Below, piece after piece: positions 1,258 through 16,292 of a DNA stretch of 41,186 nucleotides. A program made the translations under genes and the position numbers. Each line of letters begins with the position of its first letter. Position 1 is the first letter of the stretch. The stretch comes from an uncultured Acidimicrobiales bacterium. Its GTDB lineage: Bacteria; Actinomycetota; Acidimicrobiia; Acidimicrobiales; SHLQ01. Under the pieces are notes generated by a model. It saw only the letters and a list, made by a program, of their open reading frames with translations. It did no database searches and was not told the DNA's origin. Where the stretch lies: positions 1-41,186 of the forward strand of contig CALLAA010000152.1 of NCBI GenBank assembly GCA_938002955.1. The letters run 5' to 3'.

Positions 1258-2168
1258 CTGAGCTCGCCCACCGTCTCCTCGGCGGGACGGGCGAACTCGG
1301 CGTTCGGTTCATCGGTCGCCCCGTAACCGTTCCACGGCGCAAAGCCGAGCAGCCGCTTCATCTCATCGTCGAGCTCGTCGTAGACCTCAGGCCGCGTTCC
1401 GTAGGTCATGTTGGTCAGCGAGCGCACCACTGGAGCGCAAAAGAACGTGGTCAGGCCCAGGCGATGCCCATCGGAGGTGTTCGCTCCCGAGCCGTGCCAC
1501 GTTCGCCCTTCCCATACCAACGCTGACCCTGCAGTCCCCTCCGGCTGCACCTCGTCAGCGCGAGGTTCTCCCGTAGGTTGCACCCCGCTCAGGTGGCTGC
1601 CGGGCACGACCCGTGTGCCGCCGTTTGCGACGGTGAAGTCCGTGATCATCCACATGAAGTTGAGCACCATGGGCGGAGCGATTGCCCGATCCGCCGGCGT
1701 CGGTTCGCCAAAGGGCCCGTTGCCACGGATGAGGTCGCCCTGACGGTTGTGCCGCTCACCCGGTAGCGCTGGTTGGGGCATCCACCACTGGTCGGTGTGG
1801 AGCGGCATGGGCTTGTTGCCTGGATACGTGATGTGGGAGTCCATTGCCGACAGGTTGTGGTCGACGCCGAGCACATGTGTCGCAAGGGCGCGAGCGGTTG
1901 GATGGAGCGCGAGTTGGTGGAAGACGCTTCCCTTGTTGTGCAAGAGGTAGACCCACTGGTTGATGTGGTCGCCGTCGGCCTCAGCCGGGAATGGATGATC
2001 GAGCTCAGCGGCGCGCTCGCCGGCTGCCTGAGCGGCGAGGCGCTCTGCAATCGCGGCAACGGTGAAGCTGTCGAGGAGGTCCTTGGCAATGCAGTACCCG
2101 TATGCGTCAAGATCGCTGCGCATCTGGTCGAGGTCGGTTGTTCCCGTAGGTAACGAACGGTCTTCCAT
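1254..2168 (-). CDS. Phytanoyl-CoA dioxygenase (PhyH) family protein
   Basis: This 304-residue protein belongs to the PhyH branch of Fe(II)/2-oxoglutarate dioxygenases. The iron site can be read as His124-x-Asp126 (HTDQWW) with the distal His225 in WHGSGAN. Arg236, eleven residues later, suits 2-oxoglutarate carboxylate binding. Members hydroxylate small molecules; only some act on phytanoyl-CoA, so the substrate is open. It is the last gene of a minus-strand run behind the amidase, 40 bases away, and its stop overlaps that of the convergent Rieske gene. A PhyH enzyme beside a Rieske oxygenase, an amidase and beta-oxidation-like enzymes suggests breakdown of an amide or acyl compound, which is inference. 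Confidence 0.88.
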   Translation of the reverse strand: MEDRSLPTGTTDLDQMRSDLDAYGYCIAKDLLDSFTVAAIAERLAAQAAGERAAELDHPFPAEADGDHINQWVYLLHNKGSVFHQLALHPTARALATHVLGVDHNLSAMDSHITYPGNKPMPLHTDQWWMPQPALPGERHNRQGDLIRGNGPFGEPTPADRAIAPPMVLNFMWMITDFTVANGGTRVVPGSHLSGVQPTGEPRADEVQPEGTAGSALVWEGRTWHGSGANTSDGHRLGLTTFFCAPVVRSLTNMTYGTRPEVYDELDDEMKRLLGFAPWNGYGATDEPNAEFARPAEETVGELS

Positions 2169-2208
2169 ACGCAGAACCTACTCGTGCACCAACGGCTCCT
2201 CTAGCCCG

Positions 2209-3642
2209 CTACCGGGACGTGCCTGCGCCGAATAGCCGATCGAGTGGGCGGCCGAGCACCTCCTCGGCAAGTTCGCCGAAACGTAACGTCAAAAGATCGC
2301 CCATGAACGGTCCGAGAATTTGCATGCCGACCGGAAGGCCGTCCGGAGCGAGCCCGACAGGCATCGCGAGCGCCGGCAGGTAGGTCGGGTTGGCCAGGCC
2401 AGCCCAGAACCATTGCTCCCAGACGGGCCGTTCTTCGCCGTTGACCAACACGGTCTGATCGCCGAAGGGACGCTCGGTGTCGTGCGGGGGCGCTGTGGTG
2501 GGAGCCACGGGCGTGATCACGAGGTCGGCGTTCGCGAAGTAGTCCCGCCAACCGAGACGACATCGCTCCCGTTCGTTATTGAGATCGATCCATTGACGGT
2601 AGGTCACTCTCGATGCGTGGGCCATCAACGCTGCGTAGTCGCGTTCCCCGTCGTCGTAGCGAGCGAGCGCGTCGGGATCTGGCGGACCATCGGGCCCCGA
2701 TGCTGCGGCTCGGCCGATCTCCATTCCGGCGTGGTGTCCTCGCAGGACGAAGTCCATGGCGGGCGGTTCGGCAATTCGCATTCCAGCATCTGCGAGCAGT
2801 TCGACAGCGTTGGTTAGTGCTGCGGTAACGGTGTCGTCTTGGGCGCCGAGCGGATTCTCGAGCATCACGCCGACGGTGAAGTCAGCGAGCGACGCTTTTG
2901 CTGTGCGCGGCGGGCACATGAATGGTTGCCACATAACCGGCAACGCGAGTGACAGGTCCGAAACCGTTCGTGCGATCGGTCCGAGCACGTTGTTGTCGAC
3001 CGTGCCCTCGTGCCCGGGAAAGCTATGGCCGTGCGACGAGATCAGCCCGAAGCTTGTCTTCAGGCCAGCCAGGCCGGTGTAGTTCGCTGGCCAGCGGATC
3101 GAACCGCCAATATCGCTACCGACATCGAGCGAGGCCATTCCAGTGGCCACCGAGACGGCTGAACCTCCCGATGAGCCTCCCGCGCTGCGCGAGGTATCCC
3201 ATGGGTTGTTCGTCCGGCCGTAGATCTCGTTGTAGGTCTGCCAGTCACCCAAGTGTTTGGGCACGTTCGTCTTGCCGTAGATCACGGCGCCCGCTGCTCG
3301 CAGTTGCCGGACCACGTCGGCGTCTTCGCCTGGGTGGTACTCGGCGTGTGCGGGGTCGCCCCAGGTCGACGGCATACCGACAAGATCGATCGAATCTTTG
3401 ATGGTCATCGGCACGCCATGCAGTGGGCCGAGCGAACGGCCCGCAGCATGCACCTCATCGGCATTCGTCGCCGCAACCTCGGCCTTCTCGATGTCGGTCA
3501 CAACCACGGCATTGAGCTGTGGGTTGTGTGTCTCGTATTGCTCGAGGCAGGCGTCGAGCAACTCGCGTGCCGACACCTCGCCGCTCGTAAGTAATCGGCT
3601 CTGGTCTGCGGCTGGCATCACCGCCAATTCGTTGGCCCGCAT
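2209..3642 (-). CDS. Amidase (amidase signature family)
   Basis: A 477-residue amidase signature enzyme. The Ser-cisSer-Lys triad is visible as Lys82 (MTIKDS), Ser157 in the GGSSGGS glycine-serine loop, and Ser181 in GGSIRWPA. The 75- and 24-residue spacings match GatA-type amidases. It hydrolyses a carboxamide to acid plus ammonia or amine. The same frame stays open upstream to 4131, but that part lies inside the next gene and does not read as amidase. I chose the ATG at 3642 (MRANEL), 10 bases after the upstream gene's stop; an internal Met (MPAADQ) is an alternative. No gatB or gatC is adjacent, so a stand-alone catabolic amidase is likelier than the tRNA amidotransferase subunit. Confidence 0.9.
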   Translation of the reverse strand: MRANELAVMPAADQSRLLTSGEVSARELLDACLEQYETHNPQLNAVVVTDIEKAEVAATNADEVHAAGRSLGPLHGVPMTIKDSIDLVGMPSTWGDPAHAEYHPGEDADVVRQLRAAGAVIYGKTNVPKHLGDWQTYNEIYGRTNNPWDTSRSAGGSSGGSAVSVATGMASLDVGSDIGGSIRWPANYTGLAGLKTSFGLISSHGHSFPGHEGTVDNNVLGPIARTVSDLSLALPVMWQPFMCPPRTAKASLADFTVGVMLENPLGAQDDTVTAALTNAVELLADAGMRIAEPPAMDFVLRGHHAGMEIGRAAASGPDGPPDPDALARYDDGERDYAALMAHASRVTYRQWIDLNNERERCRLGWRDYFANADLVITPVAPTTAPPHDTERPFGDQTVLVNGEERPVWEQWFWAGLANPTYLPALAMPVGLAPDGLPVGMQILGPFMGDLLTLRFGELAEEVLGRPLDRLFGAGTSR

Positions 3643-3652
3643 CGGCGCTGCC

Positions 3653-4516
3653 CTATGAGTCCAACAACGTGGCCGATGCTTGCATGGCAATGCCTCCACT
3701 AGGCGTCGTCGCCCACAGCGAGAGCTCATCACCGTCTCGTCGTCCGGAGATCGTGAACGGTTCGTCCTCGAAGAGCGGGGCCATGCCGCGAAAAGAGAAG
3801 CTCGCCAGGCGCGCCCCGGTTTCGAGCGCTGCCATGTTTGCGAGCAAGGTCGCGGTGAGTGGACCGTGGAAAACGAGATTCGGGTACCCCTCGACATCCC
3901 TCGCATAGTCGCGGTCGTAATGGATGCGATGACCGTTGAACGTGAGGGCCGAATAGCGGAACAACATGACCGCCGATGGCGTAACCGTCGCGGTGAAGTC
4001 GGCGTCGTCGGGAGCTGGCTTTGGCGTTGGCTGTGGGGCATCGGGCGCTGGGTCGTCGCGGTACACCAGGTCTTGTTCTTCGGTGATTCGAAGCTCGCCG
4101 CCCACAGACAACTCGTGTCGCACCGAGACAAAGCACAGCGAACCGCTTCGCCCCTCCTTCATCTCGACGCCCTCCACCGTCGACCGCTTGGTCACCGTGT
4201 CACCCACCAGGAGATCGCCGTGGAAGGTGAGCCGGCCTCCCGCCCACATTCGACGAGGCAGCGCGACCGGAGGTAGAAACCCACCGCGTTGGGGATGACC
4301 GTCGTGGCCAACGTCGCCCATAGGGACCGCGTCGACATGATTGATGAAGTGCCACAGCGGCGGTAGTACGTCGCCTACCTCAAGCGTCGCGTCCCGCCCG
4401 AGGGTATTGGCCAACTTTCGACATGAGACCGGTGATACAAGGTCCGCACTTTCGGCGGTTCGGCCCACCCAGTTGCGGAGGGTGTCGAGGTCGTTGGTGT
4501 ACGGGATTTCGCTCAC
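3653..4516 (-). CDS. HTD2 / mesaconyl-C4-CoA-hydratase-like hot-dog dehydratase
   Basis: This 287-residue protein has two hot-dog halves. The N-terminal FAS1-like dehydratase half includes PRRMWAGGRL. The C-terminal MaoC-like half has RYSALTFNGHRIHYD followed by YPNLVFHGPL, the usual Asn/His hydratase signature. This architecture is shared by mitochondrial-type HTD2 dehydratases and mesaconyl-C4-CoA hydratases, so it should hydrate or dehydrate an acyl-CoA. A Pro/Asp-rich linker near residue 160 separates the halves. It is the first gene of a minus run (dehydratase, amidase, PhyH). It faces the crotonase gene across 73 bases, so a divergent promoter region probably lies at 4517-4589. Confidence 0.85.
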   Translation of the reverse strand: MSEIPYTNDLDTLRNWVGRTAESADLVSPVSCRKLANTLGRDATLEVGDVLPPLWHFINHVDAVPMGDVGHDGHPQRGGFLPPVALPRRMWAGGRLTFHGDLLVGDTVTKRSTVEGVEMKEGRSGSLCFVSVRHELSVGGELRITEEQDLVYRDDPAPDAPQPTPKPAPDDADFTATVTPSAVMLFRYSALTFNGHRIHYDRDYARDVEGYPNLVFHGPLTATLLANMAALETGARLASFSFRGMAPLFEDEPFTISGRRDGDELSLWATTPSGGIAMQASATLLDS

Positions 4517-4589
4517 GTCTGGACTTTACGGCCTCGACTGTGGACAGAAAGAGTTCGACGCCGGTCGTGCTGGCGCCATAGCCTGAGTC

Positions 4590-5417
4590 ATGGCCAACAA
4601 CGAACGAATTTCCGTCACGATCGAGGACGGCGTTGCCGATGTCCGTCTGAATCGCGCCGACAAAATGAATGCGCTCGACGGAGAGATGTTCGACGCCTTG
4701 CTCGCCCGAGCCGAGGCGCTTCGTAGCGACGCGTCGATTCGAGCGGTCGTCCTCTCCGGCGAGGGTACGTTCTGCGCTGGACTCGACTTCAGCGGCTTTG
4801 AGTCCATGGCATCGCAGGGCCAAGGCGGAGACCCGTCGGCGACGACCTTGGGCGATATTGCCGACGGCCAGATCACACACCGAGCTCAGCAAGCCGTCTA
4901 CGGATTTTCGACGTTGCGGGTCCCGGTGATCGCGGCGATTACCGGCGTTGCGCTGGGCGCAGGAATCCAGCTCGCGCTCGGGTCCGACATTCGGATTATC
5001 GCTCCCGATGCCCGCATGTCGGTTCTCGAGATCCGTTGGGGCATCGTTCCTGACATGACCGGCACCCGCCGCCTCTCCGAGGTCGTTGGTGTCGACGTTG
5101 CGAAGGAACTCATCTGGACCGGACGAATGGTCCACGGTCCCGAGGCAGTTCAGCTCGGACTCGCAACTCGGTTGTCCGACGACCCCCACGCCGACGCATT
5201 GGCCCTCGCGCACGACATTGCGAGCAAGTCACCCCATGCCATTCAGGCAGGCAAACGTTTGGCAAACGGAGCAGCTCAGCTCGATGACGCGGCGGGTTTC
5301 GCTGCCGAACGCGCCGAAATCGGTGCGTTGATCGGACGCCCGAACCAGGTCGAGGCGATTACTGCGTACTTCGAAAAGCGTCCTCCGGTATTTGCCGACC
5401 CGGAGATCTCGTCGTAG
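4590..5417 (+). CDS. Enoyl-CoA hydratase/isomerase (crotonase) family protein
   Basis: A 275-residue crotonase fold protein with the oxyanion-hole segments FCAGLD and GVALGAGIQ. The usual first catalytic Glu of hydratases (GGGCE) is Gln127. Glu147 and Asp155, eight apart, match the spacing of the Glu/Asp pair in dienoyl-CoA isomerases, though the third acidic residue of those enzymes is again Gln127. Isomerase or an unusual crotonase activity is therefore more likely than plain hydration. It leads a plus-strand run with the hydrolase-SARP fusion (38 bases to the chosen start) and the cupin. It is divergent from the hot-dog dehydratase, another acyl-CoA enzyme. Confidence 0.88.
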   Translation: MANNERISVTIEDGVADVRLNRADKMNALDGEMFDALLARAEALRSDASIRAVVLSGEGTFCAGLDFSGFESMASQGQGGDPSATTLGDIADGQITHRAQQAVYGFSTLRVPVIAAITGVALGAGIQLALGSDIRIIAPDARMSVLEIRWGIVPDMTGTRRLSEVVGVDVAKELIWTGRMVHGPEAVQLGLATRLSDDPHADALALAHDIASKSPHAIQAGKRLANGAAQLDDAAGFAAERAEIGALIGRPNQVEAITAYFEKRPPVFADPEISS

Positions 5418-13894: not shown

Positions 13895-13950
13895 TGCTCG
13901 ATTGTTTCACAACCAGCATGTGCGGAGAGCAATCGTGAATACTTGTGGGC

Positions 13951-15705
13951 ATGGAACGCGCTGACTCCCGGGAACCGATCTACGACGTCGTGTGGCCGCG
14001 ATCTCCGCGGGGTGTGCAACAGCATCGGCGTGCCGCTCGTCTCGATACGTTGGCTGGCAAGCGCGTCGCCTTTCTCTGGGACTACTTGTTCCGAGGCGAT
14101 GAGCTGTTCCCGATCTTGGCCGAGCAACTCACCGAGCGATTCTCCGGCATTGAGATCGTCGACTTCGTCGAGTTCGGCAATCTCCACGGTGCCGACGAGA
14201 AGGAACGAGTCGGGCGACTGCCAGACGACCTTCGAAGCCGTGGGGTTGATGCTGTGGTGTCGGGGATGGGCTGTTGAGGCAGCTGCACGCCCGCCGTGAT
14301 GCGGGCATCTATCGCTGCTGAGTCAGCTGGCATCCCGTCGGTTTCGATCGTTTGCGAAGGGTTTGCTGGCCAAGCGTCAGCCACTGCCCGCGGCCTGGGT
14401 TTCGATGGCCTACCGCTGGCGGTAACGGTTGGACACGTCGATGCCCAATCTGTGGACGAAATGACCACGAACTTCATTGCGACGACCGTTGATGACATCG
14501 TGTCCGGACTCACCGACGACGACACGGTGGACGCCGCGACCAACACCGAGCCTGCGGCCCTCGACATCGCCGTCAGTGGATCGATAGATGCGGTCAACGA
14601 GCACTTCATCGCAATGGGGTGGAGCGATGGCAACGCGTTCATCCCACCGACCCAGGGCCGGGTCGAGCGATTTCTCGACGGCTCGGGCCATGACCCCTGG
14701 AAGACCCTCGGCACGTCGCCATCGTCCGGTAGGGACCTGACGATCTGGTCCATTGCGGTCAACGCCGTGATGGCGGGCTGTCGGCCCGAGCTCCTGCCGA
14801 TTCTCATCGGGCTGACCGAAATCCTCGCCGACCCCGCGTACGGGTCCGAGCACTCCGGCAACACCACCGGCGCCGACGCCCTCATCGTGCTCAACGGACC
14901 GAACGCCGCCGCCCTTGGCTTCAACGCCGGGCCGGGAGCTCAACGTGAAGGAGTGCATGCGAACACGAGCGTTGGTCGCTGGCTTCGCCTGTATTTGCGA
15001 AACGTGTGTGGGTTCACCGCCGACGAGCACGACAAAGCAACGTTCGGCAATCCCGCCCGGCCCGTGCTCGCCGAGGACAACCGCTCTATCCGTTCGATCT
15101 CCGAGGACGTGGTGTGGCCATCGCTTGCCGAGCAGCTCGGCCATGCCGCTAGCGACGACGTGGTGTCCATGGCACGAATGAACAGCGGCCTACTCATCGG
15201 CAGCGTGTTCGGCTCTACTCCAGAGGAGATCACCCCGTATCTGGCGAACGGACTCGCCCGAGTCGCCGCCTGGGACCTCACCCATGTTCACGGCCTTGGG
15301 ACAGACCAGTTCCAACCCCTGCTGGTCGTGTCGCCCCTGCTCGCTCGCACCTATGCGAACGCTGGCTGGGGACTCGCTGAGGTCCAGGCGCGCTTGTTCG
15401 ACCTTGCGCGCATTCCAGCGAGTACGTTCGAGCGCTTCATTGGCGAGTGGACAAACCTGACCGCCGGCCGCCAAAAGCTCATCGACCTCGCCGCCGCAGG
15501 CGTGCTCCCATCAGTGTTCGCCGAGTCAGCCGACCCCGACCGGCTCGTCCCAATCGTTACTCGACCCGAACAACTGCTCGTCGCCGTCGCCGGCGACCCG
15601 AACCGCGCAAATGCCTATGCCTTTAGCAACGACGGCCCCCACGGATGGTGGACCTCCAAGCGCATCGACCACACTCCGGCGAGCGATCTCGTCTGCAAGA
15701 TCTAG
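13951..15705 (+). CDS. UGSC-family selenoprotein, read through an in-frame UGA (Sec109)
   Basis: One 584-residue protein in a single frame, interrupted only by TGA at 14275-14277. The codons around it read Gly-Met-Gly-Cys-[UGA]-Gly-Ser-Cys-Thr-Pro, the Sec-Gly-Ser-Cys motif that names the UGSC (seleno)protein family. The flanks continue the same fold: the strand AVVSGMGC before, the helix PAVMRASIAAESAG after, then SVSIVCEGF. Without selenocysteine the gene would be wrongly split at 14277, leaving two halves each incomplete. A SECIS-like hairpin follows the UGA. Sec109 and Cys112 form a UxxC redox pair with a further Cys108. The role of the family is unknown; a thiol or selenol redox or lyase function is plausible. 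ATG 13951 is preferred over GTG 13945. The CDO-like gene is 23 bases downstream. Confidence 0.9.
14275..14319 (+). promoter_or_regulatory. Selenocysteine UGA codon and bacterial SECIS-like hairpin
   Basis: After the UGA (14275-14277), GGCAGC (14278-14283) can pair with GCTGCT (14314-14319), with one G-U pair. Above an internal loop, GCCCGC (14289-14294) pairs perfectly with GCGGGC (14301-14306). The apical loop is CGUGAU (14295-14300), starting 17 bases after the UGA, with G at its second position. This agrees with the bacterial SECIS model of a short stem-loop just downstream of UGA with a G in the first two loop bases. SelB would bind here. The fold is by eye, not computed. Confidence 0.8.
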
Positions 15706-15728: not shown

Positions 15729-16292
15729 ATGGAACTATCGCAAGAATTCGACGCATTCGTCGAGGCATGCATTCCTCTGGCGGCCAACGCAGACCACGCT
15801 GGCGTGCAGCGTCTGCTCACCGATCTCATTTCGGATCACGCTGACTTCGCTGCCAACGTTCCGCAATTCGGCGAGGTCAAGCCGTCGCCGCTCGGTTGGA
15901 CGTTGGGCGGCGAGTACGTTCACCACACGTCCGACGAACTCACGGTGATGGTGCTGGACACCCTGCCGGGAGTTCTTCAGCCGCCCCACGACCACGCCAT
16001 GCATGCCATCATCGGCGTATTCCAGGGCTGTGAGGAACAGCGCTTCTTCGCTCGGACGAATACCGGTGTCGTGCCCGCTGCAGGCCGAACGCTCGAAGCC
16101 GGCGATGTCGTGGTGCTCGGCGAGCAAGCCATCCACGCGATCAGCGCTCCGCCCGGACAACCCGCTCGAGCTGTGCATGTGTATTTCGGCGACATTTATG
16201 CCGCCGAGCGGTCGCTCTTCGACCCGGACACCCTCGAACCGCTCCCCTACACCGCCGAACGGTACGACGAGCTCTGTCGCCCAGCGAGCTAA
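15729..16292 (+). CDS. Cysteine-dioxygenase-like 3-His cupin
   Basis: A 187-residue protein with the double-stranded beta-helix pattern of thiol dioxygenases. The iron ligands would be His87 and His89 (PPHDHAMH) and His136 (GEQAIHAI). The residue matching the crosslinked Cys of mammalian cysteine dioxygenase is not Cys, as in many bacterial members. It could oxidise a small thiol such as cysteine, mercaptopropionate or a related compound to a sulfinate. AAAGGAG at 15715-15721 sits seven bases before ATG 15729, which fixes the start. It lies 23 bases after the UGSC selenoprotein on the same strand, so they form a probable operon, suggesting linked thiol or organosulfur chemistry. Confidence 0.8.
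   Translation: MELSQEFDAFVEACIPLAANADHAGVQRLLTDLISDHADFAANVPQFGEVKPSPLGWTLGGEYVHHTSDELTVMVLDTLPGVLQPPHDHAMHAIIGVFQGCEEQRFFARTNTGVVPAAGRTLEAGDVVVLGEQAIHAISAPPGQPARAVHVYFGDIYAAERSLFDPDTLEPLPYTAERYDELCRPAS

Follow-up and report, generated by a model that had tools for sequence, protein, structure and literature searches.

Selenoproteins of the UGSC family (PF24696/NF041046) share a domain with a U-G-S-C motif, in which the first residue is selenocysteine (Sec) in most members and cysteine in a few. They are among the most abundant selenoproteins of marine and fresh water (PMC2398784, PMC9402790). The 2008 Global Ocean Sampling survey describes UGSC fused to an unknown conserved domain, Unknown_1 (PMC2398784). 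No biochemical work on the family was found in the literature searched.

The closest described systems outside the family are PrdB of D-proline reductase (TIGR04483) and GrdB of glycine reductase (PF07355/TIGR01917), which, like UGSC proteins, carry Sec in a UxxC motif placed after a strand and followed by a helix. In these reductases the Sec selenolate is reported to attack a carbon of the substrate to give a selenoether, whose selenium–carbon bond is then cleaved by a thiol to yield a selenenylsulfide (PMC10298544).

The gene described here lies in a 41,186-nucleotide stretch of DNA, hereafter the window (contig CALLAA010000152.1, assembly GCA_938002955.1), from an uncultured Acidimicrobiales bacterium whose genome is a draft MAG of 3.93 Mb with 90% completeness. 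It joins a known family, and its arrangement, a UGSC domain followed by a further conserved domain designated U1 in this work, resembles the fusion already reported in 2008 (PMC2398784); Unknown_1 is likely to be the same domain as U1.

The fused UGSC-U1 gene

The gene occupies positions 13951–15705 of the plus strand and consists of a 584-codon frame terminated by TAG, with a single internal TGA at 14275–14277 (codon 109) in the context GMGC-U-GSCTPAV; with this TGA translated as Sec, the product has 584 residues. Under the standard code (table 11) the frame is broken into two ORFs located at 13945–14277 (110 codons) and 14296–15705 (469 codons). The first-pass annotation, made from the letters alone, had proposed a UGSC-family selenoprotein read across a lone TGA at 14275 within Cys-UGA-Gly-Ser-Cys-Thr-Pro, and had expected automatic annotation to split the gene in two. 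Translation confirmed the frame and its context, the standard code did yield separate products of 110 and 469 aa, and the family assignment agrees with a PF24696 match which spans the UGA (E 5.7e-29). The SECIS element, the C-terminal partner domain and the relation to PrdB/GrdB described below are additions to that annotation.

This match covers residues 13–188 (13987–14514, plus strand) and scores 101.9 bits, where the cut-off is 25, and the equivalog model NF041046 gives 55.6 bits, which is below its NCBIfam cut-off of 125. The protein possesses the [Sec/Cys]-Gly-Ser-Cys motif of the family and differs from the family as described in the long fusion with the C-terminal U1 domain and in belonging to a separate clade. 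G110, S111 and C112 are invariant in an alignment of 37 sequences; Cys112 (14284–14286, plus strand), the cysteine of the UxxC pair, is likely to be the resolving thiol.

Comparison with close relatives revealed a -10-like element, AATACT, at 13938–13943 on the plus strand, ending 7 nt upstream of the ATG; the window has it in common with the loci L047, L048 and L050. Its position suggests that the selenoprotein mRNA may be leaderless.

The same genome harbors a second, stand-alone UGSC selenoprotein gene at 76357–76857 of contig C45, with UGA in the context ALADUGSCTTC, the product of which exceeds the NF041046 cut-off with 152.2 bits. On this contig (L105:4886–6867) a pyridine-nucleotide-disulphide oxidoreductase gene is followed by a gene coding for a thioredoxin-like stretch joined to U1 and then by the second UGSC gene.

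Conservation of the UGA codon and the selenocysteine insertion machinery

A scan of public genomes revealed 56 loci encoding relatives of the fused protein, mostly from Acidimicrobiales with a few from Candidatus Binatia, the nearest named one being L047 from an uncultured Acidimicrobiales bacterium (97% protein identity). TGA is present at the site in all 51 relatives spanning it, with 59–97% protein identity on both sides, and none of these 51 ends at the UGA; homologues that stop there had been named beforehand as evidence that would speak against a selenoprotein. Nearly all the listed stand-alone UGSC proteins of related genomes also have one TGA, and in the 7 stand-alone genes without an internal stop, which come from six genomes, Sec is replaced by Cys (CGSC) in every case; the first-pass annotation had proposed to look for such a Cys in non-selenium relatives.

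The four components of the Sec pathway, for which the first-pass annotation had recommended a search, were all found in the genome: a tRNA-Sec scoring 64.5 bits, above the Rfam cut-off, with the anticodon tca according to ARAGORN, selA (386.8 bits), selB (278.7 bits) directly adjoining selA on contig C145, and selD (263.3 bits) located inside a 732-codon open frame. Fusions of the Ndh-SelD type are known from ocean metagenomes, and the selD frame (L016, C145:20731–21624) is long enough to allow one.

Among 197 related genomes, UGSC and selA occur together in 91, UGSC alone in 8, selA alone in 29 and neither in 69 (Fisher p about 1e-20). Three of the eight genomes with UGSC alone (G070, G169 and G193) are carriers of the Cys forms retrieved, the UGSC match in G036 is weak, and the remaining four (G010, G019, G080 and G184) are MAGs with 73–84% completeness. 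The earlier remark on the rarity of selenoproteins among actinobacteria is not true of this lineage, in which selA was detected in 120 and UGSC genes in 99 of the 197 genomes.

The SECIS hairpin

The 18 nt at 14289–14306 on the plus strand, starting 12 nt after the UGA, can form a hairpin with a GCCCGC stem side, a CGUGNU apical loop and a GCGGGC stem side. This stretch is the same in all 52 sequences except for the position N, at which an ATG, TTG or CTG codon begins, and the loop contains a G, as expected of a bacterial SECIS element just 3' of the UGA. Codon usage was analysed at the 135 positions with a degenerate amino acid conserved in at least 95% of the loci. The most frequent codon averages 54% over these positions, and at least 98% use of a single codon is observed at only five of them, namely Thr113, Pro114, Ala115, Val116 and Arg118, which are the codons of the hairpin, with Thr113 at its foot. 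The codons for Gly110, Ser111 and Ala119, which are beside the hairpin codons, vary freely. Judging by this pattern, selection at the protein level alone does not explain the fixed codons.

Stand-alone UGSC genes have a hairpin at the same place, its stem being 8 bp long and its loop 3 nt, with 96.1% of cells pairing; in seven cells both sides show compensatory changes (G-C to A-U and C-G to G-C), which none of 500 shuffles reached. Since the folding energy of the UGA region is unremarkable in the single sequence (z = -1.6), the case for a SECIS element is built on synonymous-site conservation and not on folding energy. No Rfam match was obtained for the whole window. By the comparative evidence, the hairpin at 14289–14306 is the predicted SECIS element directing Sec insertion at the UGA at 14275.

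A sequencing error, a pseudogene lesion and a reassigned codon were considered for the TGA, any of which would mean that no Sec is incorporated; the origin of the window in a draft MAG is the one point in their favour. An identical TGA in 51 further loci, the constraint at the RNA level downstream of it and the full Sec machinery in the genome leave such explanations hardly credible, and all three were rejected on sequence grounds; nor is TGA a general sense codon, as the selA, selB and selD matches contain no internal stop. It is almost certain from these comparisons that the UGA at 14275 is decoded as Sec.

The U1 domain and its pairing with UGSC

The U1 domain comprises residues from about 203 to 584 (14557–15702, plus strand) and belongs to no Pfam or NCBIfam family; the Pfam search returned no match for residues from about 218 to 584 even at E = 1. 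Further U1 loci were found with a profile built from the C-terminal domain of the window protein. The sole other copy in the same genome is directly upstream of the stand-alone UGSC gene on C45, and in related genomes 24 of the 30 loci with a stand-alone UGSC gene, as well as all seven Cys-form loci, have a U1 gene just upstream on the same strand. Of the 197 genomes, 98 have U1 and 99 have UGSC, with 97 sharing both (Fisher p about 4e-53). On this distribution, U1 is an obligate partner of UGSC, and the two are tied in function.

The gene order is U1-UGSC when the genes are separate and UGSC-U1 when they are fused. In the trees of both domains a branch with full support (100/100) sets the fused proteins apart, which would fit a fusion that arose once.

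Of 25 stand-alone U1 proteins, about 10 begin with a thioredoxin-like stretch, which contains a CxxC motif where the N-terminus is complete. Cys277 (14779–14781, plus strand) in the motif NAVMAGC is invariant in the aligned stand-alone and fused U1 proteins, the exception being Leu in the fused relative L088, seen in a separate alignment; this residue may belong to the active site. A Foldseek search with a stand-alone U1 model (pLDDT 86.8) placed class-I fumarate hydratase (E 2e-4) and cyclic amide hydrolases on top, and these matches were set aside with TM-scores of 0.2–0.3 and rmsd values of 12–17 Å.

Relation to PrdB and GrdB

The Pfam and NCBIfam searches with the window protein gave no match to TIGR04483, TIGR01917 or PF07355. 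The stand-alone UGSC protein matches TIGR01917 (GrdB) around Sec at model positions 333–375 with an E value of 3.9e-5, its 22.7 bits being far under the cut-off of 602.2. For profile comparison, a PrdB-like family was built from the same set of genomes. With hhalign, the stand-alone UGSC profile scored 95.9% against this family over 54 columns with the UxxC motifs aligned, and the fused UGSC domain scored 92.8% over 93 columns with Sec placed on the UxxC position of PrdB. In the control comparisons, 60 column-shuffled PrdB profiles reached no more than 1.2% and 2.0%, reversed profiles gave 0.1–0.2% and U1 gave 0.3–0.5%. By these profile alignments, UGSC is homologous to PrdB/GrdB around Sec, with the similarity limited to 54–93 columns. 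Unlike PrdB and GrdB, UGSC proteins have U1 as their partner in place of PrdA/GrdE, and they score below the PrdB/GrdB cut-offs; U1 itself has no detectable homology to PrdA/GrdE or to any Pfam family.

Modelled with AlphaFold2 (pLDDT 85.7, pTM 0.88), the fused protein has alternating strands and helices, the alternation running through five repeats in the UGSC domain. Sec109 is located after the third large strand, between strand 101–107 and helix 112–125. Foldseek found no PDB match for this model at E ≤ 0.001, and the PDB contains no sequence relative or solved structure of UGSC, U1, GrdB or PrdB.

One member of this PrdB-like family is encoded in the same genome as the window (C270:18278–18571, corresponding to L125:1012–1920 on the minus strand). 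It contains TGA at the Sec position of PrdB in the context LLVPV-U-PVCHQ and likely codes for another selenoprotein.

Genomic neighbourhood

The neighbours of the gene in the window were discarded as a clue to function: apart from single matches in L050 and L051, L047, which is nearly identical, is the only other locus with the cocE-type hydrolase, SRPBCC and cupin-like genes. The downstream gene at 15729–16292 (187 codons) matches no family above the cut-off and shows a weak cupin hint (E 0.052); it is conserved in L047, and only a fragment is matched in L050. Just upstream of the selenoprotein gene, L047 has about 3.2 kb of extra genes (1741–4980) at the place corresponding to window positions 13915–13930, a difference between closely related species due to an indel or island.

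A divergent Lrp/AsnC-like regulator gene, named by eye from the sequence, is present in 15 of the 50 fused loci whose upstream sequence is long enough (L048, L050, L057, L059, L073, L075, L076, L080, L081, L083, L088, L090, L091, L094 and L098), mostly at a distance of 53–84 bp from the fused gene, with 163 bp in L098 and the genes touching in L083. No such regulator is located beside the selenoprotein gene in the window or in L047. In the Binatia, an amidase-like gene is just upstream in L087, L089, L092 and L096 and a sodium:solute-symporter-like gene is downstream in L087, L089 and L092, both also named by eye and found together at most of the Binatia loci.

Proposed reaction and alternative functions

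Because UGSC is homologous to the Sec segment of glycine and D-proline reductases, the same chemistry is proposed for it. The Sec109 selenolate would attack a small substrate, held or activated by U1, at a carbon or some other electrophilic centre, and a leaving group would depart. Cys112 would then resolve the adduct to give a Sec-Cys selenenylsulfide, from which a thioredoxin-type dithiol donor would regenerate the selenolate; the thioredoxin-like stretches fused to some U1 proteins may be counted in favour of such a donor. The pyruvoyl group of PrdA/GrdE is derived from a Cys, and U1 has a near-invariant Cys; as U1 shows no detectable homology to these proteins, their pyruvoyl activation is not to be assumed for it. 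Since a divergent Lrp/AsnC-like regulator often adjoins the gene, though in a minority of the loci and not in the window, the substrate is first guessed to be an amino acid or some other nitrogen compound; the amidase-like and symporter-like neighbours in Binatia, together with the regulator, are a weak pointer in the same direction. That the protein is a Sec-dependent reductase of the PrdB/GrdB kind, found outside clostridia, is put forward tentatively with the whole mechanism, including the Sec-Cys step and the role of U1, at slightly under an even chance.

The UxxC motif could also be read as one of the thioredoxin or peroxiredoxin type, in which case the protein would be a Sec-containing thiol-disulfide or peroxide reductase engaged in redox defence or protein-thiol maintenance, with U1 as a docking or electron-transfer partner. 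The 2008 survey proposed a likely thioredoxin-like fold and a redox role for the family (PMC2398784), and this reading would also accommodate the fusion of some U1 proteins to a thioredoxin-like stretch and the pyridine-nucleotide-disulphide oxidoreductase gene directly upstream of the thioredoxin-like-U1 gene in this genome and two relatives. The profile comparison, however, favours PrdB/GrdB. The predicted topology, a repeated series of strands and helices, looks unlike the thioredoxin fold, for which neither the model nor the profiles give support; no thioredoxin was present among the 50 Foldseek matches listed, and that search gave no significant PDB match of any other kind either. The flavoprotein gene is kept in close relatives only; having been found at just 2 of 20 relatives' loci, it was dismissed as a general partner and is regarded as a local neighbour. 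A thiol or peroxide reductase is judged unlikely on balance, yet it is the more serious of the alternative functions considered. It is rather improbable that the Sec-Cys pair binds or cleaves metals, metalloids or organometals with U1 as a binding domain: several little-understood prokaryotic selenoproteins have indeed been assigned to metal handling (PMC13188914), but no metal-resistance gene was recognised among the recurrent neighbours of the fused or stand-alone genes, and the nearest homologues are amino-acid and amine reductases.

In a broader and more speculative form of the PrdB/GrdB-type proposal, which we regard as unlikely as a whole, UGSC and U1 would add a third branch to the selenium reductases of the PrdB/GrdB type. 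This branch, common among free-living Acidimicrobiia and also found in Binatia, would make and break a selenium–carbon bond with U1 in the role of PrdA/GrdE.

The literature searched contained no paper linking UGSC to PrdB/GrdB, no description of the strict UGSC-U1 pairing beyond the fusion of 2008 and no synonymous-site evidence for a SECIS element in UGSC genes, and further work on each may exist beyond the search; within these bounds, the obligate pairing, the SECIS evidence and the PrdB/GrdB homology appear to be new. UGSC proteins are abundant in natural waters and yet have had no assigned function since they were described. The homology to PrdB/GrdB, together with the U1 partner, makes this function assayable, the activity to be assayed with the expressed pair being the reductive cleavage of nitrogen compounds such as amino acids and betaines.
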